Below, piece by piece: positions 12,097 through 26,401 of a stretch of DNA of 37,783 nt. The notes beneath the pieces were generated by a model, which searched no databases, was not told the origin of the DNA, and saw nothing but the letters and a program-made list of their open reading frames with translations. Source of the stretch: Planctomicrobium piriforme. Its GTDB lineage: Bacteria > Planctomycetota > Planctomycetia > Planctomycetales > Planctomycetaceae. Every line of letters starts with the position of its first letter. The first letter of the stretch is position 1. The position numbers and the translations under genes were made by a program. The stretch lies in contig CAMATH010000083.1 of assembly GCA_945860955.1 (NCBI GenBank), positions 1 through 37,783 on the forward strand. Direction: 5' to 3'.

Positions 12097-13326
12097 TCAA
12101 ATTGCCCGAATCGCTGGCAATGCGTCAAACTTTCCTCCCAAAACTTTTTCACTCGACACCCCCAGCCAACTGTCGAGGATCGAGGCGTAGACTTGGCGGA
12201 AGTCGGTGTGGAATTTGAGATCCCCCTGGTCGAGATCATCGAGACGGGGGTGTGTTCCGATCAGGCCGGGGGCGACGCGGTTGCCCACCAGAAAGACCGG
12301 GGCGGCGGCACCGTGGTCGGTTCCGTCGCTCGCGTTTTCCGCGACGCGTCGGCCGAATTCGCTGAAGCACAACGTCAATACGCGATCCCCCAGCCCCAAA
12401 TCCGCCATGTGGCGGTTGAGGGCCTGCACCGCGTCACCCAACTGTTTCAGCAAGGAACTGTGGGCGGCAGGTTGCTGGGCATGGGTGTCGAAGCCGTCGA
12501 GTTCGACGTAATAAATGCGGGTCTCCAGGCTGGCGGCAATCAATTGGGCGACAGTGGAGAGCTTCGCTCCCAGCGCGGTCGCCGGGTAGTCGTGCGGTTT
12601 CGCCCCTCCGTCACGCAGTTTTCCAAATCGGCCACTCACATCAATGGCCGACGCCGTGCTGGTCTGCACGAACGAGAGCAGGTCGTCCTCGTCATCGGCC
12701 CGCTGCGCTTTGACCAGTTGACTGATCGCCTCCCGTTCCTCCCCCGCATTCAACCGAAACTGGTCGAGCGACCGGATCGACGGCACGCGGACCTGGCGCG
12801 ACACCAGTGCCAACGGCTGCTTCTCGGCCCCCAAGTGGAGTGCCAGCGGGTCCGACGCCGTCCGGGTCGCCGACCATTGGTCCAGCGCGCGCCCCAGCCA
12901 CCCGTCGGTGCGCGGGTCGGATTTCCGCAAACAGGTGTGCCAGATGTCCATCGATTCAAAATGCGAGCGATTGGGCTGCGGATATCCCACTCCCTGCACG
13001 ATCGCCAGTTGTTCCCGTTCCCACAGGTCGGCGAACCCGCGCAAGGCGGGATGCAGCCCCAGTCCTTCGCTCAGTTTGAGAACGTCCGCCGCAGGAATCG
13101 CCAGCTTGGGACGCGCCTGGCGATACCGCTTGTCCTGGAAGGGAACCACCGTATTCAGGCCGTCGTTTCCCCCTGAAAGCTGCACGACAACCAGAATGGG
13201 GCCATCCACTTTCTTTTCAGAGTCGGCCAGCGCCCGCCGCAGCAGGTGGGGGACCGGGGAACCGATCCCCCAGGCCAGTGGCGCGACAGAGGCCCCTTTC
13301 AGAAATCCTCGGCGACTGACAGACAT
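12097..13326 (-). CDS. DUF1501 protein with Tat signal
   Basis: Exported protein of 409 residues in the DUF1501 family, which has an alkaline-phosphatase/sulfatase-like fold but no established substrate. The N-terminus is a twin-arginine signal (SVSRRGFLKGASVAPLAWG). Family landmarks are LVVVQLSGGNDGLNTVVPF (about 46-64), GVGYPQPNRSHFESMDIWHT (about 115-134) and FSEFGRRVAENASDGTDHGAAAP (about 320-345), the last matching the metal-ligand region of alkaline-phosphatase-like enzymes. The ATG at 13326 sits directly before the Tat motif. It lies 64 bases downstream of the DUF1800 gene on the same strand, the classic DUF1800-DUF1501 operon, and is convergent with the DUF1549/DUF1553 gene. Tat export suggests it is folded, perhaps with a metal, before transport. 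Confidence 0.92.
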   Translation of the reverse strand: MSVSRRGFLKGASVAPLAWGIGSPVPHLLRRALADSEKKVDGPILVVVQLSGGNDGLNTVVPFQDKRYRQARPKLAIPAADVLKLSEGLGLHPALRGFADLWEREQLAIVQGVGYPQPNRSHFESMDIWHTCLRKSDPRTDGWLGRALDQWSATRTASDPLALHLGAEKQPLALVSRQVRVPSIRSLDQFRLNAGEEREAISQLVKAQRADDEDDLLSFVQTSTASAIDVSGRFGKLRDGGAKPHDYPATALGAKLSTVAQLIAASLETRIYYVELDGFDTHAQQPAAHSSLLKQLGDAVQALNRHMADLGLGDRVLTLCFSEFGRRVAENASDGTDHGAAAPVFLVGNRVAPGLIGTHPRLDDLDQGDLKFHTDFRQVYASILDSWLGVSSEKVLGGKFDALPAIRAI

Positions 13327-13390: not shown

Positions 13391-14758
13391 TCAGGCGAGC
13401 TGAAATTCGGGGAGTGTGCAGACGAGGTGCAGCGCGCCGCGGAGGTGTTTTTCCCAGTCGCCCGTCTTGCGATCGATGAGTTCAACCGTCTGCGCGCGGG
13501 CGGCTGGCGGCAACGGAACGGCGAACAGCAGTTCCTCCAGCCGATGGACGATGGCTTGCGAATCGCTGGTTCCCTGGCGGGTGAGAAAGTCGCGCAGTGA
13601 ACCGCCGTTGAATCGCGTCGCGCCGGAATCGAGCAGGCCTTTGATGAGATTCGCCCGGCCGAGCAGCGTCGATGAATTGATCCAGGTCCTACCCCCGTCC
13701 CACCCTTTGACGTTGGGAGGGAAAAAGAGATCTTGTCCCAGTTCTCCCAGATCCTGCGCTAGCTTCACGAAATTCGTCGTTCCCGACAAGGCCCGCAGAA
13801 ATCCGACCGCCACATCGACGGGAGATTTGACCTTCCGCGCGAGGGCGTGACGGGAGAAGAACAGGTTGCTCGACAGAATCCGCTGAATGACCGGGAGGGT
13901 CTTCAGTCCCTGTTCACGAAACTGGCGGGCGAGTGGTTCGAGCAGTTCCGGTGAGGCCGCAGGCTCATCGAAGACGAAGTCGCGAACCAGCTTCTGCACG
14001 ATAAACATCGGAGCCGCCGACTGCCGCAGCACCAGGTCGACTCCGTCGTCGCCGCTGAATTCCCCGGTGGAACCCAGAATCGACTTCGATCCCGGATCCT
14101 GCTGCTCGGGATTGAGCCGGAAGTTGCCCCGGCGGACTTCCCAACCCGCGAAGCAGCGGGCGAGTTCGCGAATATCCTGCTCGGTGTATTGGCCTTCCCC
14201 CAGGCAGAACAGCTCCATCAGTTCGCGGGCGAAATTCTCGTTGGGGTGCAGTCGGCGGTTGGTCGCCGAGTCGAGCCACAGCAACATCGCCGGGTCGCGG
14301 GCGATGTCGTGAACCAGTTGTCCAAAATCCCCCAGCGCATGCCGACGCAGCAGTTCATTCTGACGATACATCAGCTCGGGATCGGTCACCTTGGCGGCGC
14401 TGGTCGCGAAGTGCCCGTGCCAGAATAGAGTGACACGCTCGAGAAACGGAACCGGCGTGGCAAGCATGCGATACAGCCACCATGCTGGAAGTTTGCGCGC
14501 ATCTCCCCCCGCCAGACTCGGACGCGCGAGGCCCGCCATATCGATGCGAAACTCCGCAGGTTCCACGGCGGTGCAAATCGCCGCGACCGCCTCGGAGGGG
14601 GACTTCGCGATGTCGGCATCCAACTCGGCGGACGTGCCAGCGAATCCGGACCGGCGGCGCAGATGGGCGGCGAGCCGCCGGTTCCAGGGCTGTTCGGCCG
14701 AAGGGACAAACGGACTCCAGGCCCATTCGGGATCAATCGACTTCAACGAGGGAGCCAT
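13391..14758 (-). CDS. DUF1800 protein
   Basis: Protein of 455 residues in the DUF1800 family of unknown function. Diagnostic segments are VTLFWHGHFATS, RRLHPNENFARELMELFCLGEG followed by YTEQDIRELARCFAGWE, and near the C-terminus DLFFPPNVKGWDGGRTWINSSTLLGR. It starts at the ATG at 14758 and shows no signal peptide or membrane segment, unlike its partner DUF1501, whose gene follows 64 bases later. The two families are encoded together across many phyla, so the products probably act together. A reasonable inference is that DUF1800 is carried out of the cell bound to the Tat-exported DUF1501 protein, or else stays in the cytoplasm as a maturation factor. Neither is shown by the sequence. Confidence 0.9.
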   Translation of the reverse strand: MAPSLKSIDPEWAWSPFVPSAEQPWNRRLAAHLRRRSGFAGTSAELDADIAKSPSEAVAAICTAVEPAEFRIDMAGLARPSLAGGDARKLPAWWLYRMLATPVPFLERVTLFWHGHFATSAAKVTDPELMYRQNELLRRHALGDFGQLVHDIARDPAMLLWLDSATNRRLHPNENFARELMELFCLGEGQYTEQDIRELARCFAGWEVRRGNFRLNPEQQDPGSKSILGSTGEFSGDDGVDLVLRQSAAPMFIVQKLVRDFVFDEPAASPELLEPLARQFREQGLKTLPVIQRILSSNLFFSRHALARKVKSPVDVAVGFLRALSGTTNFVKLAQDLGELGQDLFFPPNVKGWDGGRTWINSSTLLGRANLIKGLLDSGATRFNGGSLRDFLTRQGTSDSQAIVHRLEELLFAVPLPPAARAQTVELIDRKTGDWEKHLRGALHLVCTLPEFQLA

Positions 14759-14830: not shown

Positions 14831-16651
14831 TCATTCTTTCGCCGCCGTCACCGAAAGTTCAACTTGCACCCGCCCCTCGTCCGTAAACACTTGCAAGCCC
14901 GCGTCCTGAAACAGGCCGATGATTCCAAACAGCCCCTCGATCTGGCGCTCGGCCTCTTCCCGCGAACGCCCTTCTTCCAGCATGTTCCGGGCGATCAATT
15001 GTCCGCGATTGTCTCCCAGAATCGCCTTCAAAAAGCCGGCATCCAGTCGGGCACTGGTATTCACGACTCGGCCTGCAGGACTGGCGGAATCCTCTCCCTT
15101 GGGGGCGGTGATCATTTGCCGGGCGAGCGTGCGGGTGCTGGACAGTACGAACCGATTGTCTGCGAACGCCGCAGTGGGGGAGAAGTTGAAATTGATCCGC
15201 GCCTCCCCCTCGACATCACGTCCCGTTTCCGGAAGGTACGTCGACGTCACCAGCTCTCCTGCCGTGAGTTTCTCGACATCCAGTTCCAACTGCGGCTGGG
15301 CGTTCATCGCCCCAATCACGTTGAGAAACCCGACCAGACTTTGAAACGTCCGCCGCAATTCCCGGCGGGTGATTTCAGGATTCCGCATTTCGAACTGCAG
15401 CGCGAACGCGGGGAGCCGGACGGCGGGTCGCGGATACCCTTCCTCGGCGGGGGGACGGGTGACAACGAGTTGCGTCTGCGGACCGAGCAACCCCAGCACC
15501 TCTTCACCGAAATCCTTGCCGCCGAACAGTGTCGACAGGCCGCTGTTTCCCTGTGTCAGTTCTTCAGCGGCCTTCTGCGTCAACAGCTCGTCGGCGCGAC
15601 GCCACATCTTGCCCAGATCGCGGTAGAAGGTGAATGTGAACAGAGTTTCCGGAACTGGCGTTGGCTGCGGAGCCGACCCGGAACCGTTGGGGCCGAAGTA
15701 ATGTTCGCGCGCGGGGCTGACCCATTGCGACTGATGGGGCAGCGCGAGATTGAGCCTCGCATCGGCCGGTGTCAGGTGGAACGACAGAGTCGCGTACGGA
15801 GTCTGTTTCAGTGTGTCGAGCAGGCCACCGAACAGGAACTCGGCGATGATATTGTCCGCCTTGCCGCTGTACGCCTGCGGGGCGAGCCCACTCGCCCGGG
15901 CCGCCTCAATGTCGGCGAACAGCCACAGGGTGGCGCGCTTGGAGCCGTTTTTCGCCCCCTGGAACTTGGGGAGCTGTGCCAGCGACGCGGGTGCGTCGGG
16001 CGTCCCCTGCGGGCGATCGAGATGGCGATCGATAATCGCCTTGCCGAGATCCGCTTTGTTCGTGATCACCAGCCACGGTCCAATAACCGCCGAGGCGCTC
16101 CCATTGGCTTCATACGCGGTGACGCCGCGGTATTCGCGGGTTTGAAGCGGGTCGGGTCGTTTGTTCCGTTTGGCGTCGTCGCGGGCGAGGGTCAGGAGTT
16201 TGTCGCGGAGCGTCAGAAGCTGTTTTTCATCGGGGGCGCGGGCGAGGATCGCAAATCCCTGGGTGGGGGGATCGAAGGCGGCGTAGAGTCCCGCGCCAGC
16301 GAGCGTTTCCAGCGCCTTCCGCCATTCCATTCCCAACGCGAACTCGACAATCCGCAAACCGACGATTCCCTGAAAGTATTCCGGCGTTTGCGTGGCGCGT
16401 TTCCAGACTTCGAGTTCTTCGACCCGCCCCCGAAGCGGATGGTCCAGCAGGGCGCCAATGAGTTTGTCCGGCTCGGGGATCTCGGCGTAGTACACGGCGG
16501 TCGGGGGCAGCAATTCGGCTGCCTGCTGCCCAGCCACTGGCTCCTGCCCCAGGGCGACCCCTGCCAAATACAAAAGCCACGCCAGACAGAAACCGCAAGG
16601 GTTTGTCCAGGAGGTGTTGAGACGATTTCGGTTTTGCATCGATCGGTTCAT
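14831..16651 (-). CDS. Large secreted hypothetical protein
   Basis: A 606-residue product that I do not recognise. An N-terminal signal peptide is clear (basic start, hydrophobic GFCLAWLLYLAGVALGQ, then mature EPVAGQQAAELLP); both the ATG at 16651 and the in-frame ATG at 16639 would serve. The mature part opens with LLPPTAVYYAEIPEPDKLIGALLDHP, a pattern seen in planctomycete secreted proteins of the DUF3352-like type, and alternates predicted beta strands and amphipathic helices. No catalytic motif, Cys pair or haem site is evident. The C-terminus (GRVQVELSVTAAKE) is a beta strand plus short tail. It lies 72 bases upstream of DUF1800 on the same strand and could be transcribed with it, although the family pairing is not known to me. 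It is divergent from the VWA gene. Coding confidence is high, function unknown. Confidence 0.78.
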   Translation of the reverse strand: MNRSMQNRNRLNTSWTNPCGFCLAWLLYLAGVALGQEPVAGQQAAELLPPTAVYYAEIPEPDKLIGALLDHPLRGRVEELEVWKRATQTPEYFQGIVGLRIVEFALGMEWRKALETLAGAGLYAAFDPPTQGFAILARAPDEKQLLTLRDKLLTLARDDAKRNKRPDPLQTREYRGVTAYEANGSASAVIGPWLVITNKADLGKAIIDRHLDRPQGTPDAPASLAQLPKFQGAKNGSKRATLWLFADIEAARASGLAPQAYSGKADNIIAEFLFGGLLDTLKQTPYATLSFHLTPADARLNLALPHQSQWVSPAREHYFGPNGSGSAPQPTPVPETLFTFTFYRDLGKMWRRADELLTQKAAEELTQGNSGLSTLFGGKDFGEEVLGLLGPQTQLVVTRPPAEEGYPRPAVRLPAFALQFEMRNPEITRRELRRTFQSLVGFLNVIGAMNAQPQLELDVEKLTAGELVTSTYLPETGRDVEGEARINFNFSPTAAFADNRFVLSSTRTLARQMITAPKGEDSASPAGRVVNTSARLDAGFLKAILGDNRGQLIARNMLEEGRSREEAERQIEGLFGIIGLFQDAGLQVFTDEGRVQVELSVTAAKE

Positions 16652-16915: not shown

Positions 16916-19315
16916 ATGAATTGGCTCAAACGGCTCTCCGAGTGGCTGCTCAACGCGCGGCCCAGCTCCCCTGGACAGGGTACGTCCTGGAACATCACAC
17001 ACGATTTTCCCTGGCCTCCCTGGGGACTGGCGGTGTTTCTGGTTCTGGCCACGCTGTTTGTGGTTGCGGTGTATCGTCGCGACGCGGGTCATCTGCCGCG
17101 TGCCAAACGCGGTCTGCTGGTCGGGCTGCGCCTCGCGACAATCGCTGTGGTGTTGTTTCTGCTCAGTCAGGCGCTGCTGTCGGTCGAACGGACCGGATTG
17201 CCCTACGTGCTGGTGCTGCTCGACGTTTCGAACAGTATGGGAACCGTTGATCGGTACCAGCAGCCGGCGGAGGCCGAGGCGGCCAAGCGACTGGTGGCCG
17301 ACAATCAACTCGGTCAGTCGACCCGACTCGCTCAGGCGCAGGCCCTGCTGCTTGACCGCAATGGGGCCTTGCTCCGCAGTCTCATCGAAAACCACAAACT
17401 CCGGTTTCACACGATCGCGGAAGGGGACGCGGTTCTGGGTGACGAGGCGGCACTCAATGCGGCCGATATTGATGGCTTGTTACCCAAAATTCGGGAACTG
17501 GTCCCAAGCGGCAACGAAACCCGGCTGGGAGACGGTTTGCGGAACGCGCTCAACAGTCTGCGGGGAACCCCGCCCAGTGCCGCCATTCTGCTGACCGACG
17601 GCATCTCCACCGACGGGGAATCGCTGCAAACCGCCGCCCAATACGCCCGGCAGCGCTCGGTCCCGCTGTTCGCAGTGGCGCTGGGCAGCGCCGACCCGGT
17701 CATCGATCTTGAACTCCATAACGTTTTGGTGGACGACACCGCGTTTGTCGGTGAGCCGGTTTCTTTCGCGTACACCCTCACCGCGCGCGGTCTGTCGGGC
17801 AAGACGGCTCGGGTCAACTTGCGCAATTCGGAAACGGGCGAGACGCTGGCGACCCGCGATGTGCGGATCGCCGACGATGGCAAACCGCAGAAACAGGAAC
17901 TGAGTTTCACCCCCAATACGACAGGCGAACTTTCGATTGTGATCGAAGCGGTCGAACAGCCGCAGGAATCGAATACCGCCAACAACCGGGAAACACGCCG
18001 CATCAGCGTCCGGGACGAGAAGTTGAAGGTTCTGCTGGTGGATCGAGTGCCACGCTGGGAGTTTCGGCAGTTGAAAGACCTTTTGGGACGCGAGAAAACC
18101 GTCGAACTGAAGACCGTGCTGCTGGACGCGGATGACGATTTCGTCAAAGAAGACAGGACGGCGTTGCCACGGGTGCCCCAAACAAGGGAAGAGCTGTTTG
18201 AGTACGACGTCTGCATTCTGGGAGATCTGTCGGCGACGCAGCTTACGCCGTCGGTGCAGGAGAATCTGCGAGATTTCGTCGGGGAGCGGGGCCGGGGGAT
18301 GTTGTTCATCGCCGGCCCCAATCACAGCCCCGAGACATTCGCGGGGACGCCGCTGGAGTCACTGCTCCCGATTGAACTCGCGGGCGTCCGCAAGCCTGGT
18401 CCCAACGAGATTTTGAAACAGGAATTCCGTCCCGAACTGACCCCCGAGGCCCGCAAGGGGAGTTCTCTGTTTCGGTTCGCCGACGGCGAGCGCGAGAGCC
18501 AGGAAGTGTGGGACTTCCTCCCGGGGTTGTACTGGTCGGTCGACGTGCAGCAGATTCGGCCCGGGGCGATTGTGTACATGGTTCACCCTCAGAAGTTGGT
18601 TCAAGGGAAGCCGGTAGCATTGATTGTCACACAGCGGTATGGCAACGGAAAAGTGCTGTATCACGGTGTCGAAGAGCTGTTCCGCTGGCGTTTTCGCACG
18701 GGAGATGTCTACTACGGCCGCTACTGGGTGCAGTTGTTGCGCTATCTGGCCCATTCCCGGGCGGCGGCTGCGGAAGGGTCGGCGGAATTGATCGCCGACC
18801 GCAAAGCGTACCAGGCGGGTGACCCGGTCACGTTGCGATTACGTTTTCTAAATGAACGGCTGATTCCAGCCGACGGGGATGGCGTTCAACTCGTTGTGGA
18901 GACAGTCGGCTCAGGGCAACAGCGCATCAAATTGACCCGCCTTCCCGAGGCGGCGAACGTGTTTGAGGGGCAGCTTGCGCATCCCGCGCCCGGGAAGTAC
19001 CACGCGTTTGTGGGAACGCCTACGTTTCCTCACGCCCCGCCCGCAGCCGATTTTGAAGTGCGGGCGAGCGAGCGGGAATCGCGCAGCCTGCGGGCCGACG
19101 CGGCGGAGTTGACACTGGCGGCGAGCCAGACCGGGGGGAAGACCTATACTTTGGCGACGGCTTCGCGCCTCGCGGTGGACATTCCTCCGGGATTACCGGT
19201 TCCCTTGGAGCCGGAAAGTCCGCTCAAGATCTGGAACCACTGGTTGGTGCTGTTGACGTTCTGCGGATTGCTGACGCTCGAATGGATGCTGCGAAAACGC
19301 TGGAGACTCGTATGA
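16916..19315 (+). CDS. Membrane VWA-domain protein with GATase1-like domain
   Basis: Integral membrane protein of 799 residues. Two N-terminal transmembrane segments (about 36-52 and 70-88) are followed by a von Willebrand factor A domain with an intact metal-binding MIDAS motif D-x-S-x-S (DVSNS, 103-107) and LLTDGIS. A CARDB/Ig-like beta segment (about 260-365) leads into a flavodoxin-like domain resembling class I glutamine amidotransferases (LKVLLVDRVPRWEFRQLKDL to GRGMLFIAGPN), but the catalytic Cys of true amidotransferases is absent, so a structural role is likely. The protein ends in a final membrane helix (HWLVLLTFCGLLTLEWML) and a basic tail. Start at ATG 16916 places the first membrane segment normally. 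Its stop TGA overlaps the next start as ATGA at 19312, so the pair is translationally coupled. Similar proteins in other bacteria sit with MoxR ATPases (Bat operons), but no MoxR gene is present here. Confidence 0.85.
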   Translation: MNWLKRLSEWLLNARPSSPGQGTSWNITHDFPWPPWGLAVFLVLATLFVVAVYRRDAGHLPRAKRGLLVGLRLATIAVVLFLLSQALLSVERTGLPYVLVLLDVSNSMGTVDRYQQPAEAEAAKRLVADNQLGQSTRLAQAQALLLDRNGALLRSLIENHKLRFHTIAEGDAVLGDEAALNAADIDGLLPKIRELVPSGNETRLGDGLRNALNSLRGTPPSAAILLTDGISTDGESLQTAAQYARQRSVPLFAVALGSADPVIDLELHNVLVDDTAFVGEPVSFAYTLTARGLSGKTARVNLRNSETGETLATRDVRIADDGKPQKQELSFTPNTTGELSIVIEAVEQPQESNTANNRETRRISVRDEKLKVLLVDRVPRWEFRQLKDLLGREKTVELKTVLLDADDDFVKEDRTALPRVPQTREELFEYDVCILGDLSATQLTPSVQENLRDFVGERGRGMLFIAGPNHSPETFAGTPLESLLPIELAGVRKPGPNEILKQEFRPELTPEARKGSSLFRFADGERESQEVWDFLPGLYWSVDVQQIRPGAIVYMVHPQKLVQGKPVALIVTQRYGNGKVLYHGVEELFRWRFRTGDVYYGRYWVQLLRYLAHSRAAAAEGSAELIADRKAYQAGDPVTLRLRFLNERLIPADGDGVQLVVETVGSGQQRIKLTRLPEAANVFEGQLAHPAPGKYHAFVGTPTFPHAPPAADFEVRASERESRSLRADAAELTLAASQTGGKTYTLATASRLAVDIPPGLPVPLEPESPLKIWNHWLVLLTFCGLLTLEWMLRKRWRLV

Positions 19316-22300
19316 TCGATCGCATCTCAGACCCCGTTCTGCGAAGGCTCTCGGGAATTCGAGGCCGGGTGCGCCAGGTGTTGTGGACCGGTGGCGTGGC
19401 CCGCACCGCTCTGGTGACGCTGGCCTGCGTACTCACGATCGGACTGATCGACTGGTGGTACCACCTGGATGACCCCGGGTTGCGGTTCCTGCTGCTGATG
19501 GGGCTGGTCGGGATGGCGGGTTACACCGCGTGGAGATGGCTGATCACTCCGTTGCGGGCGCGGTTGTCGGATCTCGACGTGGCGCTGCGCATTGAACAGC
19601 GTTATCCGGGGTTCCGTGACAGTCTGGCGAGTACGGTTCAGTTCGTGGAACAGGGAGGCGACCCGCGCGTCGGTTCTCCGGCCTTGCAGCGGGCGGTTGT
19701 CCAACAAACCGCGAAGCGACTGGCCGCCGTCGATCTGGACGATCTGGTTCAGACCTCCACCGTGATGAAATTCGCGATTTGTGCCGCCATTCTCATGGCG
19801 GTCGCCGCGATTCTGGTGCTGGTTCAGCCGAGTCGGGCGGCGCTGGCGCTGCATCGCCTGTTTCTTCCCTTCAGCGCGCCGGCGTGGCCCCGCGCCGTCG
19901 AATTGCGGCTTCTCGATGCGGAAGGGGAACCGCTGTCCGCTGACCTCGCCGTCGACCTTCAGGTTCCGCGCGGGGAAGTGTTTCGCTTCCATGCGGAAAA
20001 CACCCGGGGGGCGCTTCCCCCGCGCGTGGTGCTGGAAACCCGACCTGCGAAAACCAACGGCCCGGTGACACAGGAATCGCTCCGCCCGGTGAATGTCGCG
20101 AGTGCTGCGGGCAAATTTCGTGAACTGGCGCTGGGGCAGATCCAGGCTCCCAAATCAGCGATTGAATTTCGGGTCATCGGGGGGGATGACACGACCATGG
20201 CGTGGCGCACGTTGCGCGTGGTCAATCCGCCGATCGTGGAAAAGTTGCAGCTCAAGGTCACTCCGCCCGCATATACGAAACGACCTGTGGAGCTGCTTCC
20301 CAGCGGAGTGGGACACGTGACCGCGCTCGTGGGAACTGTGGTCGATGCGGAAGCGTTCGTGAACCGACCGCTGGCGACGGCGAACCTTCGATTGCGCGAC
20401 CGCGAACGGATTCCGTTGCAGATCGCCGACGATCGTCAGACGGTCACGGGAAGATTTCGGATCACGGAATCGGGAGTCACTTCGTGGTGGTTCGAACTCC
20501 GTGATCCCGAGGGGATTCAAAGTTCCGATCTGGTCCGTTATGAGATCCGCGGAATTCAGGATCTGGAACCGGAAACTCTCATTCAGGTGCCCTCCGCCGA
20601 CCTGCAGGTGACCGCGACCGCCGTGGTGCCGGTGCGAATTGTGTCGCGCGACGATCTGGGACTGGCCGAGGTGCGACTGGTCTATGACGTCGACGGCGGT
20701 GCCGCTACGACGGTCCCGCTGTTTCAAGGAGAATCGCGGCCGGAAGAGTTGACGTCGGAGTACGTGTTTCAACTCGGGGACCTGAAGCTGAATCCGGGGA
20801 GTGTGGTGCGGTACCGGTCGGAAGCGCAGGATGATTTTGTGCATCCGAGCGACGGATCCCGGCACTTGAAGCTTAGCGTGACCCGCACGCTGACGATCGT
20901 TTCCCCGGAAGACAAAGCCCGCGAAATCGAACGCGAACAAGCGGGGCTGTTGCACGATCTCGAACAGGTCGCCCGGCAGGAACGGCAGGCCCAGGACCAG
21001 ATTCGCGGGCTGGAACGCCAGCTTGAAAAGGCGGGAGAGTTTCGAGCCGAGGATGCCGACGCGCTCAAACGGACCGAGTTGCTGCAACGCGAAGTCAATT
21101 CGCAGTTGAGCAACCCGGCGGTGGGCCTCGCGCAGAAGACACGTGAGATTCTCAATGAACTGAAAGACAACCAGATCGAGGATCCGTCCTCCGAACGGCG
21201 ATTGGAGGCGATCGCCTCGGAACTCGAGCGACTCGGGGCCGAAACGCTGCCACAGATAGAAAACGCGCTGACCCAGGCCCGCAAGTTGACCGAACAACCC
21301 GAAGGATCGCAGACCCCGAAAGAAGCCGAACGCGAACTGGCCAAGGCGCGGGAAGAACAATCGGGTGTTTTGGAGTCGCTGCAAGAGCTGCAGAATGAAC
21401 TGTCTGAGTGGCGGACCGAACGCGATCTCGGACAGGATCTGGGTTCGATCACCAAGGGACAGGAAGAACTCCATCGGGATACCGGAGAACTGCAGCAACG
21501 TCTGATGAATCAAGGCAAGCCGACTCCCTCGAAACAGGATGAGGCGGACGTGGCGCGGATCGCGGACCGGCAGCGGCAACAGGCCGAACAGTTTCGGCAA
21601 CTGGAAGAGAAGTTGAAGGGGAAACTCGAAGCGGCGGAACAAGGGGGTGAACCGACGGCGGCGACCGACGCGCTCAAAGAGACCTTGGAGGAGGCCGAGC
21701 GGAAGGATGTCGCAGGCCAGATGGGGAACGCCGCCTCACAGATCGAACAGAAACACCTGGGAGAAGCGTTGCGGTCTCAACAGGATGTGCTGAAGAAGAT
21801 GAAGGAACTCGCGGGAACACTGGAACAAAAGCGAGAACAGGATGAAGCGACTCTGGTCAAGAAGATGAAGGAGTCGGGCGAGGCGGCCGCCAGCATCGCC
21901 GATCGCCAGCGTGACTTGCAGAACCAGTTGGCCCAGGCTGGCGCGATGCCCGCTGGTCCCGAACGGGAGGAAAAGCTCGGCCGCTTGCGGCAGGAACAGC
22001 GCAAGCTGCGAGAAGAGACCGCCCGGCTGGCGCGGCTGCTGCAACGCTCTGGCGCGCAACGGTCGGGTGACGCGGTGCAGCGAGCGGGCGGAAGCATGAA
22101 TCAGGCGGAGGACGAAATCGCCGACTCGGACCTCGAAAACGCCGACCGTGAGATGAGCGAAGCGATTGACGACATTGAACAGGCCGAACAGGAACTCTCA
22201 GACGAACTGAAAGAGGCGGAAGAACGTCTGGCCAATGAACTGCTGCAAAAGATGGCGGCGGAACTGAAGAGTCTGGTCGGCAGACAGCAGGCCGCTCTGG

Positions 22301-23058
22301 AAGAGTCGCGCCGACTCGACGGATTGCATGAGGTCGCCGGGAAGTGGTCGCGGTCGCAGAATCAGTCGCTGAAACAGCTCTCGGAAGTTCAACGCACATT
22401 GCGGCAGGAGACCGAGTCACTGGCCGACCGACTCGCACCGGCCAAGGTCTTTTCGCTCTCTTTACGCGGCGCGGCACGGGCGATGCAGAAGGCCGAGGAG
22501 TTGATCGCCAAAAAAGAAGTCTCCAAGCCGACGCAGCAATTGCAGGAGTCGGCCCGAAGGCGGTTCGAAGAAATGGTCGAGGCGATCGCCGCCCGAAATC
22601 CCGACGAACAACAGCAGCAGGGAAAACCGCCCGAGGATGGCCAGCAACAGCAGCAGAAAGAGTCGAGCGGCGGTCCGCAGGGGGACACGGTCTCCGCGAT
22701 CGCTCAGTTGAAGATTCTGGTGACATTACAACGGGAAGTGATCGACCGCACGGCCGAACTCGACGCAATGCGATCTCAACCGGGACACGAGTGGAGCGAC
22801 TCCGACCGCGATGAACTGGAGCAGTTGCGGAATGAACAGGACCAGCTTGCAGACTTCGCCCGGGAACTGGCCGAAATGGTTGCCGCCACCACAGACGACG
22901 ACGAAGAGGACCAGAGCGGCGATCTTCCGGACCCCGACAAGCGGCCAACCGACGAGGGAGAACCAGGATTTCTCCCCATGGATTCTGATAAACCCGGCCC
23001 GCAGAAAGGCCCCAATCCCCCAGAGCGAAAAGTCGAGGATCTGCCCGATGTGGACTAG
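19312..23058 (+). CDS. Giant DUF4175-like membrane protein with long coiled coil
   Basis: Product of 1248 residues. The N-terminus carries three probable membrane segments (about 37-50, 60-80 and 150-170: VMKFAICAAILMAVAAILVLV), then beta-rich, Ig-like extracytoplasmic domains to about 530. From about 534 to 1083 the chain is almost pure charged helix, rich in Glu, Gln, Arg and Leu in heptad-like spacing (for example REIEREQAGLLHDLEQVARQ), followed by a Gln-rich linker (residues about 1095-1120), another helix (LKILVTLQREVIDRTAELDAM) and an acidic, Pro-rich tail. This architecture resembles the DUF4175/TIGR02302 membrane proteins. The ATG at 19312 shares the ATGA with the previous stop; an in-frame start at 19282 inside the upstream gene is less likely. 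It is the middle gene of a three-gene operon. The coiled coil is long enough to reach across a wide periplasm or to build a filament; that is inference. Confidence 0.82.
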   Translation: MIDRISDPVLRRLSGIRGRVRQVLWTGGVARTALVTLACVLTIGLIDWWYHLDDPGLRFLLLMGLVGMAGYTAWRWLITPLRARLSDLDVALRIEQRYPGFRDSLASTVQFVEQGGDPRVGSPALQRAVVQQTAKRLAAVDLDDLVQTSTVMKFAICAAILMAVAAILVLVQPSRAALALHRLFLPFSAPAWPRAVELRLLDAEGEPLSADLAVDLQVPRGEVFRFHAENTRGALPPRVVLETRPAKTNGPVTQESLRPVNVASAAGKFRELALGQIQAPKSAIEFRVIGGDDTTMAWRTLRVVNPPIVEKLQLKVTPPAYTKRPVELLPSGVGHVTALVGTVVDAEAFVNRPLATANLRLRDRERIPLQIADDRQTVTGRFRITESGVTSWWFELRDPEGIQSSDLVRYEIRGIQDLEPETLIQVPSADLQVTATAVVPVRIVSRDDLGLAEVRLVYDVDGGAATTVPLFQGESRPEELTSEYVFQLGDLKLNPGSVVRYRSEAQDDFVHPSDGSRHLKLSVTRTLTIVSPEDKAREIEREQAGLLHDLEQVARQERQAQDQIRGLERQLEKAGEFRAEDADALKRTELLQREVNSQLSNPAVGLAQKTREILNELKDNQIEDPSSERRLEAIASELERLGAETLPQIENALTQARKLTEQPEGSQTPKEAERELAKAREEQSGVLESLQELQNELSEWRTERDLGQDLGSITKGQEELHRDTGELQQRLMNQGKPTPSKQDEADVARIADRQRQQAEQFRQLEEKLKGKLEAAEQGGEPTAATDALKETLEEAERKDVAGQMGNAASQIEQKHLGEALRSQQDVLKKMKELAGTLEQKREQDEATLVKKMKESGEAAASIADRQRDLQNQLAQAGAMPAGPEREEKLGRLRQEQRKLREETARLARLLQRSGAQRSGDAVQRAGGSMNQAEDEIADSDLENADREMSEAIDDIEQAEQELSDELKEAEERLANELLQKMAAELKSLVGRQQAALEESRRLDGLHEVAGKWSRSQNQSLKQLSEVQRTLRQETESLADRLAPAKVFSLSLRGAARAMQKAEELIAKKEVSKPTQQLQESARRRFEEMVEAIAARNPDEQQQQGKPPEDGQQQQQKESSGGPQGDTVSAIAQLKILVTLQREVIDRTAELDAMRSQPGHEWSDSDRDELEQLRNEQDQLADFARELAEMVAATTDDDEEDQSGDLPDPDKRPTDEGEPGFLPMDSDKPGPQKGPNPPERKVEDLPDVD

Positions 23059-23896
23059 CGCGATGATCTGTGAATGGCTGCGAGTTGGTTGTCTCGCGGT
23101 CGCCCTGCTGGGGGCGCAGGAGGTTCAACCCGAGGAGGACGCGCCGGTTGAAGAACCGAAAGCGACGGCCCCACCTCCCGTGGAACCGAATCCGGGCGGT
23201 GAACCGACGATCGACGATTTGCCCGACGATGATCTTCTCGACAAACTCGACCCGACGAAGAAGTCGCCGTTGGATGAAGCGCGAGAGAAACTGGAAGCGG
23301 CCATAGAGACGATGCGTTCCGCGAAAGATCGGCTGACCGATTCCGATACCGGCAACGAAACCCGGGCGTTGCAAACCCGAGCCGCTGACGACCTGGAAAA
23401 GATTCTGGAGTTGCTGAAGCAGCCTCCGCCGCCGTCGCAGCAGAGCAAGAGTCAGAATCAAAACCAGAATCAAAACCAGGATCAGAATCCACAACAAAGC
23501 CGCAACCAGCGGCAGCAGCAAAGGCAACAGCAGGGTCGACAACAGCAAAGCCGACAACGGCAGTCGGGACGCCAGTCGCAGCGCCGGCAATCGCAGTCGA
23601 AAAAGCCGCGCGGTCCTCAGGGACAGCAACAGGCGGCCAGCAACCAGCCCCAGCCCACTCCGGGTGAGCGGAACGACCAGGCGAACGAGTCGGACGATAG
23701 ACTCGATCCCGCGAAGAAGAAGGCGGAAGAGGAAGCCCGCCGCCGGGCGGACGCCAATGACGTCTGGGGGCATCTGCCCCCCAACGTGCGCGAGGCGCTG
23801 CAAAAGTCATTCAATGAGCGGTACTTGCCGAAATACGAGGAACTCGTGCGGCGGTACTACGAATCTTTGGCGGAAAAGAAACGCGACCGGCCGTAG
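23048..23896 (+). CDS. Exported Gln/Asn/Arg-rich hypothetical protein
   Basis: Last gene of the operon, 282 residues from the ATG at 23048, which overlaps the previous gene by 11 bases; an ATG at 23063, four bases after that stop, is equally plausible. The N-terminus (CEWLRVGCLAVALLGAQE) is a signal peptide or anchor. Then come an acidic Pro-rich stretch (DDLPDDDLLDKLDP), a helix (about 75-125), a low-complexity region of Gln, Asn, Arg and Ser (about 130-205, coded partly by two exact copies of a 12-base unit at 23453-23476), and a C-terminal helical part (WGHLPPNVREALQKSFNERY, then a Tyr-rich helix RRYYESLAEKKRDRP). The ordered C-terminus looks like the functional part. No enzyme motif is seen. 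Tight coupling to the DUF4175-like gene suggests the two proteins form a complex. Confidence 0.75.
   Translation: MWTSAMICEWLRVGCLAVALLGAQEVQPEEDAPVEEPKATAPPPVEPNPGGEPTIDDLPDDDLLDKLDPTKKSPLDEAREKLEAAIETMRSAKDRLTDSDTGNETRALQTRAADDLEKILELLKQPPPPSQQSKSQNQNQNQNQDQNPQQSRNQRQQQRQQQGRQQQSRQRQSGRQSQRRQSQSKKPRGPQGQQQAASNQPQPTPGERNDQANESDDRLDPAKKKAEEEARRRADANDVWGHLPPNVREALQKSFNERYLPKYEELVRRYYESLAEKKRDRP
23453..23476 (+). repeat. Two tandem copies of a 12-base unit in the Gln-rich gene
   Basis: CAGAATCAAAAC occurs twice head to tail at 23453-23464 and 23465-23476, followed by a degenerate copy (CAGGATCAGAAT). It encodes Gln-Asn repeats and is a likely site of length variation between strains. Confidence 0.7.
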
Positions 23897-24187: not shown

Positions 24188-26401
24188 ATGTCTTCCCGTG
24201 TGCGACTGGTGCTGGCTCTGCACAATCACCAGCCGATTGGAAATTTCAACGGCGTCTTCGAGTCGGCGTATCGCGAAAGCTACGCCCCTTTCCTCGAAGT
24301 TCTCGAGCAGTATCCCGAAATTCCGATTTCGCTGCATACCTCGGGAAGTCTGCTGGAATGGCTGGTCAAACACCACCCCGAATATGTCGAGCGGGTGCGG
24401 GCGCTGGTCGAACGGGGACAGATCGAAATTGTCGGCGGTCCGTTCTTTGAACCGATTCTCGCAACAATTCCCCGCCGCGATCGCCTGGGACAGATTCGCG
24501 CTTACACCCAATACCTCGAGCGGCTGTTTGGCGTCGTCGTCCGGGGCATGTGGACCCCCGAGCGGGTTTGGGAACAGTCGTTCGTGGGAGACGTGACCCA
24601 GGCGGGAATCGAGTACACCATTCTTGACGATTACCACTTCCGCTGTGCCGGCCTGGTCGATGAGGAACTCTTTGGGTACTACCTCACCGAGGATGAAGGG
24701 CGACTGCTCAAGGTCTTCCCAGGCAGCGAGAAACTCCGCTACACCATCCCCTTCGCCGACCCGACCGACACCATCGACTACCTCCGCCAGGTGGGGAAAC
24801 GCTACCCCAATTCGGTGGTGACGTTTGGCGATGACGGGGAAAAGTTTGGCACATGGCCGGGGACGCAGCAACATGTCTACGCCGACGGCTGGCTCAGGCG
24901 GTTCTTCGACGCGCTGTGTGAAAACTCCAGTTGGCTCACCCTGTCGACGATGGCCGATGTGGTCGATCAGGTCTCCCCCGCCGGCAAGGTCTACATCCCC
25001 GACAGCAGTTATCGTGAGATGACGGAATGGGCGCTGCCGGTCGCGCGGCAGCTTGAATACCAGCATCTGACACATGGACCGGCGTCCGACGAGGATCACG
25101 CCGCCGCCCGGCAATTCCTGCGGGGCGGTTTCTGGAGAAACTTTCGGGTCAAGTATCCCGAGAGTAACGAGATGTACTCGCGTATGCTGCAGGTTTCCGA
25201 GCGGCTTGCTGAACTCTCGGTGGCTGCCAATGCCGACGAACAGGCCGACCTGCTGGAACAGGCGCGGACGGAACTCTACCGCGCGCAGTGCAACTGTTCC
25301 TATTGGCATGGCGCGTTCGGCGGGCTCTACCTGCCCCACCTGCGGAACGCGGTCTATCAGCGATTGATCACCGCCGACACTTTGCTGGAACGGTCGGCGG
25401 GGCGACAGGGGCGTTGGGTCGCGATCGACGCGCACGACTACAATCTCGACGCCCGCAAGGAAGTTCGGCTCGCAGGAGATCGGCTCGCCGCGTACTTCGC
25501 ACCGGCCCGCGGCGGGCATCTGTACGAACTCGATATCCGCTCGATTTCGCACAACCTGCTGGCGACGTTGAATCGCCGGCCCGAGGTGTATCACGACCGG
25601 GTCCGTGAGGTGGGCGAACGCCCCAAGACGACAGAGTCGGTGGCGGAATCGGGGAAACCGGTCAGCATCCACGACCTGACCGCGTTCAAACAACCCGATC
25701 TGCATCGCAAACTGATTTACGACAGTTGGCCGCGCAAAAGTTGCGTTGATCATTTCTTCCAACCGGGACTCACACTGGCGCGCCTGCGACACGGTGAGGG
25801 GGAGATTGGCGACTTTCACACCGGCGTCTATGAAGCGACGGTCCGCCGATCTCCGGACCGGGGTGAACTGCGGATGACCCGGCGGGGTGGACTGGGTCCA
25901 TATTCGATCGTGGTCACGAAAACCGTCGCATTGAAGGCGGGGGGATCGCGGCTCGAATTCGCGTACCGACTGGAATCGCTGCCCCGGGATGTGCCTTTGC
26001 ACTTTGGAGTGGAATTCAACTTCGCGGGATTGGCGTCGGGGGCGGACGACCGTTATTTCTACGACGCCGGCGGCGGCCAGTGTGGCCAGTTGCAATCGGT
26101 TCTCGATCTCCCCCCGATGAGCCGCATCGGCTTGATCGATGAATGGGTCGGGATCGACGCCGCCCTGGAATTGTCGCGACCGGCGAAGATCTGGACGATG
26201 CCAGTGGAGACGATCAGTCAATCGGAAGCGGGATTTGAAGGCGTCTTTCAGAGTGCCGCCGTGATTCCCCACTGGGAATTCTCGGCGGCAAACGACGGAG
26301 TGTTTGAGGTACAAATCGACCTGATCATCGACACCTCAGCGGCCCAGGCGCGCAAGCTGCGGGAAATCCCCGCGCCACAACTGGCAATCGTCGAAGACTG
26401 A
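24188..26401 (+). CDS. GH57 alpha-amylase / 4-alpha-glucanotransferase
   Basis: Retaining glycoside hydrolase family 57 enzyme (737 residues) acting on alpha-1,4-glucans such as glycogen or maltodextrin, probably cytoplasmic since no signal peptide is seen. Conserved GH57 regions are present in order: HNHQP (12-16), GGPFFEP (about 94-100), WTPERVWE (122-129) with the nucleophile Glu125, and TFGDDGEKFG (212-221) with the acid/base Asp in the DD pair. The C-terminal half carries the beta-sandwich domains (DUF1925/DUF1926 type) found in the Thermococcus litoralis 4-alpha-glucanotransferase group, which is about 660 residues. That similarity favours glucanotransferase over simple amylase, but the substrate cannot be settled by eye. 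A Shine-Dalgarno AAGGA lies seven bases before the ATG. No other glycogen gene is nearby; bioD follows after 88 bases. Confidence 0.92.
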   Translation: MSSRVRLVLALHNHQPIGNFNGVFESAYRESYAPFLEVLEQYPEIPISLHTSGSLLEWLVKHHPEYVERVRALVERGQIEIVGGPFFEPILATIPRRDRLGQIRAYTQYLERLFGVVVRGMWTPERVWEQSFVGDVTQAGIEYTILDDYHFRCAGLVDEELFGYYLTEDEGRLLKVFPGSEKLRYTIPFADPTDTIDYLRQVGKRYPNSVVTFGDDGEKFGTWPGTQQHVYADGWLRRFFDALCENSSWLTLSTMADVVDQVSPAGKVYIPDSSYREMTEWALPVARQLEYQHLTHGPASDEDHAAARQFLRGGFWRNFRVKYPESNEMYSRMLQVSERLAELSVAANADEQADLLEQARTELYRAQCNCSYWHGAFGGLYLPHLRNAVYQRLITADTLLERSAGRQGRWVAIDAHDYNLDARKEVRLAGDRLAAYFAPARGGHLYELDIRSISHNLLATLNRRPEVYHDRVREVGERPKTTESVAESGKPVSIHDLTAFKQPDLHRKLIYDSWPRKSCVDHFFQPGLTLARLRHGEGEIGDFHTGVYEATVRRSPDRGELRMTRRGGLGPYSIVVTKTVALKAGGSRLEFAYRLESLPRDVPLHFGVEFNFAGLASGADDRYFYDAGGGQCGQLQSVLDLPPMSRIGLIDEWVGIDAALELSRPAKIWTMPVETISQSEAGFEGVFQSAAVIPHWEFSAANDGVFEVQIDLIIDTSAAQARKLREIPAPQLAIVED

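Follow-up and report, generated by a model that had tools for sequence, protein, structure and literature searches.

A three-gene membrane operon of Planctomicrobium piriforme as the probable distal half of a split Bat/Cmd-type system

Three adjoining genes of Planctomicrobium piriforme raise the question of what powers a set of membrane proteins that resembles Bat-type operons and has no ATPase gene beside it. They lie on the plus strand of contig CAMATH010000083.1 (assembly GCA_945860955.1; the window, i.e., the whole stretch analyzed, is 37,783 nucleotides long) and encode a VWA/GATase-like protein of 799 aa (gene 1, 16916..19315), a DUF4175-like protein of 1248 aa (gene 2, 19312..23058), and a Gln-rich protein of 277 aa (gene 3, 23063..23896; an alternative start at 23048 gives 282 aa). 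An earlier note, made from the letters alone, had described three overlapping genes and proposed an undescribed membrane machine; its coordinates and overlaps are right (an ATGA overlap, with gene 2 starting at 19312 and gene 1 ending at 19315, followed by an 11-base overlap or a 4-base gap, depending on whether gene 3 starts at 23048 or 23063), and its observation as such is confirmed, while its interpretation is upheld only in part. We conclude that the trio probably makes up the distal part of an operon of the Bat/Cmd type with six genes (MoxR, DUF58, BatA, VWA/GATase-like, DUF4175-like, and Gln-rich) that has been split in this organism's own family, Planctomycetaceae (f1), that the front half lies here on another contig, C8, and that the whole would be a machine for envelope integrity and cell shape.

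A scan of 40 genomes for gene 1 yielded a high group at E 7.5e-93 or better (31 genomes, including the present one) and paralogues at 2.3e-72 or worse. The loci of the high group from the 30 other genomes (15 from f1, 4 from a family designated f3, and 11 from other families) were all fetched with their flanks, together with two lower-scoring loci, L091 and L092. MoxR, DUF58, and BatA were found directly upstream of gene 1, in the same direction, in 11 of the 11 orthologous loci outside f1 and f3; eight of these show all six genes, two end at a contig edge, and L080 remains. The profiles used for these annotations were built partly from the same loci, and an independent tblastn search with the window sequences recovered gene 2 in 8/8 and gene 3 in 7/8 of the six-gene loci. 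Among the f1 loci with at least 5.5 kb of upstream sequence (10, the window included), none has a same-direction MoxR, DUF58, or BatA upstream; in L073, a MoxR gene lies 6 kb away on the other strand. The four f3 loci (L086, L088, L089, and L090) have BatA preceding gene 1 and no MoxR or DUF58 in the 5.8–6.1 kb upstream of BatA, which is a second, different break of the operon. A second locus scan confirmed 130 loci and kept the best 80, which include some from genomes already covered, and 35 of the 80 carried both flanks at the required length (at least 5.5 kb upstream and at least 5.2 kb downstream): 11 hold six genes, 11 the trio only, and 13 gene 1 alone. The six-gene loci include those of Paludisphaera soli and Aquisphaera insulae (Isosphaeraceae) and of metagenome-assembled genomes titled Pirellulales, and among the 13 loci with gene 1 alone, 7 bear the title Schlesneria (Planctomycetaceae); family names follow the record titles. 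Orthologues of these genes thus stand in a Bat/Cmd-type operon in relatives; the resemblance to Bat-type operons, which the earlier note had pointed out, is real kinship, and the products are, as it supposed, one conserved set. A chance neighborhood was considered and rejected, since the gene order is conserved across families.

The earlier note had also stated that MoxR and DUF58 genes are lacking, which is true of the window but not of the genome. Neither stands beside the trio; DUF58 matches occur at 14 places in the genome, and contig C8 carries MoxR-DUF58-BatA, with DUF58 at L030:6625-7509 and with genes 1 and 2 absent from the 16 kb read. The best matches of the C8 BatA in the 11 genomes outside f1 and f3 are the BatA proteins that precede the trio there, and by sequence comparison the C8 BatA is orthologous to trio-linked BatA elsewhere. 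In a midpoint-rooted tree of 40 BatA rows, several of them long-branched, C8 and 16 other unlinked f1 BatAs form one clade (100/99), which is nested in a 32-row clade (98/93) with 15 BatAs adjoining gene 1; five paralogues from the same genome fall outside. The unlinked rows were drawn from 22 fetched f1 front loci, of which 16 entered as such, L136 entered as an outside row, and L124, L130, L133, L135, and L138 were omitted. C8 likewise groups with other unlinked rows in the DUF58 tree (99/98) and the MoxR tree (93/88), in both of which the deeper forks are poorly resolved. The survey for a distant MoxR/DUF58 gene that the earlier note had proposed leads to C8. Its picture of an undescribed machine with an open energy source is not supported, because ATPase genes lie elsewhere in the genome and, in relatives from other families, the trio shares an operon with MoxR, DUF58, and BatA. 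The C8 front half is the likely energy source of the trio. Directly after the C8 BatA stands a SurE-type gene (L030:10002-10814, G000:C8).

The co-occurrence of the two halves was examined in a sample of 150 f1 genomes. With gene 1 and C8-type BatA both called at E≤1e-75, gene 1 is present in 100/150 and BatA in 93/150. (The two 150-genome scans agree in the genomes they list; of those without a match, the first 20 were identified individually.) Both genes occur in 87 genomes, gene 1 without BatA in 13, BatA without gene 1 in 6, and neither in 44 (Fisher p 9e-20), and a hand count by genus gives 39, 5, 2, and 12 of 58 (p 5e-7), although both values ignore shared ancestry and their significance is inflated by it. 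Within none of the 87 genomes do the two genes lie within 15 kb on one contig, and where both stand on a single contig (13 genomes) they are 1.15–3.3 Mb apart. As the genes are not linked and still tend to be retained or lost as a group, their co-occurrence is a hint of function and not just of linkage. Gene 2 orthologues, defined as matches of >300 bits plus G103 (254.7 bits, truncated where its contig ends after gene 1), were found in 95 genomes; the gene 2 search had listed 109, of which 14 lower-scoring ones were dropped, G007 and G087 (262–265 bits) among them. Gene 1, gene 2, and BatA are all present in 83 genomes, all absent in 43, and mixed in 24. Of the 93 f1 genomes with both, 60 have genes 1 and 2 no more than 15 kb apart and 33 do not, some of these perhaps through contig breaks; the separation is genuine in the single-contig genomes G149, G058, and G065. 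The trio is not a fixed unit, which half bears out one of the objections that the earlier note had itself foreseen; genes 2 and 3 mostly stay together. Among ten genomes with gene 1 and BatA, eight have a MoxR at least 68% identical to that of C8 (in G015 a cut fragment) and G013 and G065 have none; in four trio-less genomes and two of genus g47, the best MoxR is only 58–62% identical. No DUF58 was found in the 16 kb surrounding the best MoxR of G149, G004, G067, G009, and G065, and one was found in G024. The complete genome G149 has its best MoxR at 4.50 Mb, BatA at 3.40 Mb, gene 1 at 5.81 Mb, and genes 2–3 at 2.10 Mb.

Such dispersal could also mean that the trio, once split off, became an ATPase-independent periplasmic scaffold and that the C8 genes now serve another purpose. 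The members of genus g47 (G051, G091, G111, and G123) would fit this, as they have gene 1 and no C8-type BatA at E≤1e-75, and the best MoxR of G051 and G091 is just 61–62% identical to the C8 MoxR. We nevertheless regard a scaffold as unlikely: elsewhere the unlinked modules are mostly kept or lost as a set, as the above counts of 83 and 43 of 150 indicate, and the six genomes with BatA and no gene 1 include none that is at least 95% complete (one of them, G020, shows a borderline match beside its own gene-1 paralogue). A stand-alone ATPase-free machine was for its part rejected as the principal explanation, since the front genes accompany the trio in relatives and C8 has the front half; genus g47 sustains it as a rival.

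Several observations weigh against joining the trio to C8 in a Bat/Cmd-type envelope system. One of the 11 outside loci, L080, has no gene 2 or gene 3 within 5 kb. The front half is itself often dispersed: MoxR-DUF58-BatA stand together in 8/22 f1 front loci, 11/22 (with >5.5 kb upstream) have no MoxR before BatA, and 3/22 are cut short. The co-occurrence counts are uncorrected by a species tree, and 6 of the 69 gene-1 genomes that are at least 95% complete lack a C8-type BatA, three of them being genus g47 and another, G087, having a gene 1 match of paralogue-like score. The stretch after the third transmembrane helix of gene 2 is basic in 23/26 rows, which is no clear fit to a periplasmic immunoglobulin (Ig)-like part. 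Finally, the genome has at least 11 MoxR genes, another of which could be the partner, and the MoxR tree leaves its own paralogues on C76, C7, and C6 among the operonic rows. These last points bear on whether the trio is served by one of the other MoxR-DUF58-BatA sets of the genome (C76, C7, C28, C6, or C82) rather than by C8. With five paralogous sets, cross-talk is possible, and C76, C7, or C6 as the partner would be compatible with the MoxR tree. On the other hand, these sets have a gene-1 paralogue (5/5) and a gene-2 paralogue (4/5) of their own, and none of their BatAs belongs to the clade formed by the BatAs found with gene 1 in other families, so that we consider such a partner quite unlikely and retain C8.

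The paralogous sets (L022-L026) differ in their order. That on C76 reads MoxR-DUF58-BatA-gene 1-gene 2, those on C7, C28, and C6 read MoxR-DUF58-BatA-gene 2-gene 1, with genes 1 and 2 swapped as compared to C76, and that on C82, at a contig edge, reads DUF58-BatA-gene 1. A further gene-1 paralogue on C22 (L027:10125-12371, G000:C22) adjoins a YbeY-like endoribonuclease gene, with no Bat genes in the stretch read.

Gene 1 is a membrane-anchored VWA protein, as membership in a Bat/Cmd-type system would have it. It consists of two N-terminal transmembrane helices, VWA, Ig-like, GATase-like, and Ig-like domains, and a C-terminal transmembrane helix with a basic tail, and is CmdD-like; its start at ATG 16916 agrees better than TTG 16832 with the orthologues in A1 and A4. 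The VWA domain is above the Pfam cut-off, and the metal ion-dependent adhesion site (MIDAS) is intact, as the earlier note held: the D, S, and S of DxSxS (D103-S107, 17222..17236) are kept in 31/31 aligned orthologues, the third ligand T202 (17519-17521) is T or S in 31/31, and TDG 227-229 (17594-17602) is (T/S)DG, with DG in 31/31. The note was also correct that the GATase-like domain lacks its catalytic Cys. The nucleophile-elbow region reads IAGP (residues 465-468, 18308..18319) and has no Cys; residue 466, at the strand end where the Cys of an active class I glutamine amidotransferase would be expected, is A or S in all 31 rows (this column was placed by eye in the alignment), and in the rest of the elbow stretch a Cys is seen only in L233 (at 464) and L234 (at 469). 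A GATase1_like match was obtained for 6/31 orthologues, and the structures matched by the gene 1 profile were 2gk3 (E 7e-6) and 3soz (E 1e-4), both GATase-like, and 3ibs (E 0.0019), the VWA domain of BatB. A basic loop between the first two transmembrane helices and a basic C-terminal tail are found in 31/31 rows, and by the positive-inside rule the VWA/GATase part would thus be periplasmic. The predicted structure has a mean predicted local distance difference test (pLDDT) score of 84.6; its top Foldseek match is 6s7t_G, a chain of an oligosaccharyltransferase (E 1.6e-9, TM-score 0.35 by target, root-mean-square deviation 12.4 Å). OST48 contains a Rossmann domain of the GldG/IFT type, and a match to it would agree with a GATase-like domain that is non-catalytic; this is a lead only.

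The conserved MIDAS of gene 1 (31/31) would also suit a chaperone that serves one specific enzyme, in oxidative stress (aerotolerance) or in metal insertion, in place of a general envelope system. Roles of this kind have been put forward for Bat proteins and are reported for NorQ/NorD (PMC3557215, PMC13036017). The phenotype reported for the homologous Rhizobium operon type is one of envelope and shape defects, and an enzyme chaperone is in our view a doubtful alternative.

Gene 2 has three transmembrane helices, Ig-like domains (∼19903-20901), and then a long helical/coiled-coil part. Its designation as DUF4175-like, taken over from the earlier note, is borne out by its family rather than by the window protein itself, which scores 13.9 bits against DUF4175 (Pfam PF13779; cut-off 27.3) and gives no Pfam match to it for its N-terminal 620 aa; 4/26 aligned gene 2 N-termini match at E≤0.01 (best 2.1e-8), and the paralogue on C28 exceeds the cut-off at 29.5 bits. 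The first 620 aa were modeled, with Ig-like domains, at a pLDDT of 89.9; the structure matches were mostly generic Ig-domain proteins and were set aside. The N-terminus is basic in 26/26 rows and the first loop in 0/26, and because of the basic stretch after the third helix, the side of the membrane on which the Ig part lies is not certain. At lower scores, the broader gene 2 family extends across Planctomycetota (109/199 phylum genomes at E≤1e-60), with scores of >600 bits in five genomes only, all of the same class. The DUF4175 protein AdvA acts in Acinetobacter cell division according to the part of that paper available (PMC7481262), which is a loose hint at most.

Gene 3 has a hydrophobic, signal-peptide-like start and contains 13.7% Q overall and 37.9% Q in residues 119-205; the low complexity and C-terminal element that the earlier note ascribed to it are both evident. 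The C-terminal segment, WGHLPPxxR...LPKYEELxRRYY (23765..23890), has invariant W, G, L, R, and Y in 18/18 rows, which were themselves chosen by a profile of that segment. The sole Pfam match of gene 3, to TFIIA, stays below the cut-off (E 0.0023) and lies in the low-complexity part. In the 55 loci whose downstream flank is long enough, genes 2 and 3 are both present in 36 and both missing in 19, and no locus has just one. Stop-free fusions of the two occur in 15 loci (13 distinct), as well as in L247, and at eight gene 2 loci separate from gene 1, gene 3 comes next in seven, one of these being fused, and is lacking in L242. Genes 2 and 3 thus mostly remain paired and are sometimes fused. Adhesins often contain VWA and Ig-like domains, and these domains together with the signal-peptide-like start of gene 3 could suggest an adhesion or extracellular scaffold made of the Gln-rich protein and VWA domains. 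This is highly improbable, as the conserved C-terminal segment and the fusions to the membrane protein of gene 2 (13 distinct loci and L247) fit an envelope subunit better; no evidence for adhesion turned up, and none was specifically sought.

On the reading that the trio and the C8 genes form one Bat/Cmd-type system, we infer a physical complex with the following topology, energy transfer, and task. MoxR would be a cytosolic AAA+ ATPase and DUF58 the VWA-type adaptor that goes with it, and the pair would act on three membrane subunits (BatA, gene 1, and gene 2) through their cytosolic loops and tails. The periplasmic VWA/MIDAS sites may bind clients, the GATase-like domain would bind without catalysis, and gene 3 may extend into the envelope together with the Ig-like and coiled-coil part of gene 2. 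The task would be the upkeep of envelope integrity and cell shape, and the envelope role suggested by the earlier note remains the best guess. It is an evenly balanced question whether this amounts to an exploded operon, i.e., a six-subunit trans-envelope AAA+ machine whose genes lie at two, three, or four places in Planctomycetaceae and are inherited as a set, with an envelope arm (gene 2 and gene 3) undescribed for Bat systems in the portions of the literature at hand. On the Bat/Cmd reading, the trio would have a likely motor, a list of partners, and a role open to testing, in a phylum whose envelope is unusual, and the loci (one, two, and three or more) would form a natural series for how operons of membrane complexes come apart.

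The surroundings of the trio are as follows. A gene of 606 aa (14831-16651, minus strand) is divergent from the trio and has no Pfam or NCBIfam match at E≤0.1; in the near-identical relative G002 its homologue is likewise upstream of gene 1 on the opposite strand. Beyond it, open reading frames at 13391-14758 and 12097-13326 also lie on the minus strand, and a GH57-type glycosidase (24188-26401) follows downstream of the trio. In this closest relative, gene 1 (L063, G002:C500:19196-21501; 97–98% identical) is split in two by a stop, possibly through an assembly fault. NCBIfam gave one weak match for gene 1 and none for genes 2 and 3 or the two neighbors searched. Within the window there were no RNA elements at Rfam gathering scores, no Sigma-70-type promoters (0 vs 0.9 expected), and 17 terminator-like sites (vs 9.4 expected), none of them informative.

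Among known systems, the closest likeness is to the cmdA-cmdD type of R. leguminosarum (RL3499-RL3502), which has the same order as the planctomycete front half plus gene 1. RL3499-RL3502 are the subject of a 2011 paper by Vanderlinde. On the R. leguminosarum plasmid pSK03 (NZ_CP022567), whose copies may differ from RL3499-RL3502, MoxR, DUF58, a DUF4159 protein, and a hypothetical protein follow one another in that order, and gene 1 alone finds the Rhizobium locus by tblastn (E 1e-7). Against the four pSK03 proteins, the planctomycete models scored 400 bits for MoxR and 82 bits for DUF58; the BatA model scored 96 bits on the third (DUF4159) protein and 36 bits on the last, and the gene 1 model scored 82 bits on the fourth, covering positions 69-120 and 198-589 of 796 and leaving the C-terminal part uncovered. 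The gene 2 and gene 3 models matched none of the four. The Rhizobium operon differs in having, by annotation, no DUF4175-like or Gln-rich gene behind, and in being compact and proteobacterial. The operon cmdA-cmdD/RL3499-RL3502 is reported to affect cell morphology and envelope integrity, in which mutants are defective (PMC5700661, PMC3893208).

The Bat (aerotolerance) operons of Bacteroides and Spirochaetes share MoxR, DUF58, and membrane VWA proteins, and the profile of gene 1 fits BatB (3ibs); as far as the Bat background in the accessible portion of PMC3557215 goes, they have BatD, TPR, and SH3 proteins, whereas the planctomycete set (in which BatC-E were not searched for) has a GATase-like VWA protein, a DUF4175-like protein, and a Gln-rich protein. 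NorQ/NorD and RavA/ViaA share an AAA+ ATPase that works with a VWA/MIDAS protein, and in the model for NorQ/NorD, as given in the available part of PMC13036017, the MoxR ring twists and stretches its VWA partner. These are, however, two-protein pairs, whereas the planctomycete system has several membrane subunits with VWA domains that are probably periplasmic. The class I glutamine amidotransferase-like proteins (2gk3 and 3soz) resemble gene 1 in the fold region but not in the nucleophile. Other MoxR-vWA systems, some of them in planctomycetes, are treated in PMC7159879, from which the words BatA, DUF58, and GATase are absent. In the literature searched, no paper joins MoxR, DUF58, and Planctomycetes, and among the titles and abstract starts listed there is no description of the planctomycete operon. 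Compared with all of these, the system is ordinary in kind, an AAA+/VWA envelope system of the Bat/Cmd type, and new in its make-up, with two added subunits, and in its dispersal.

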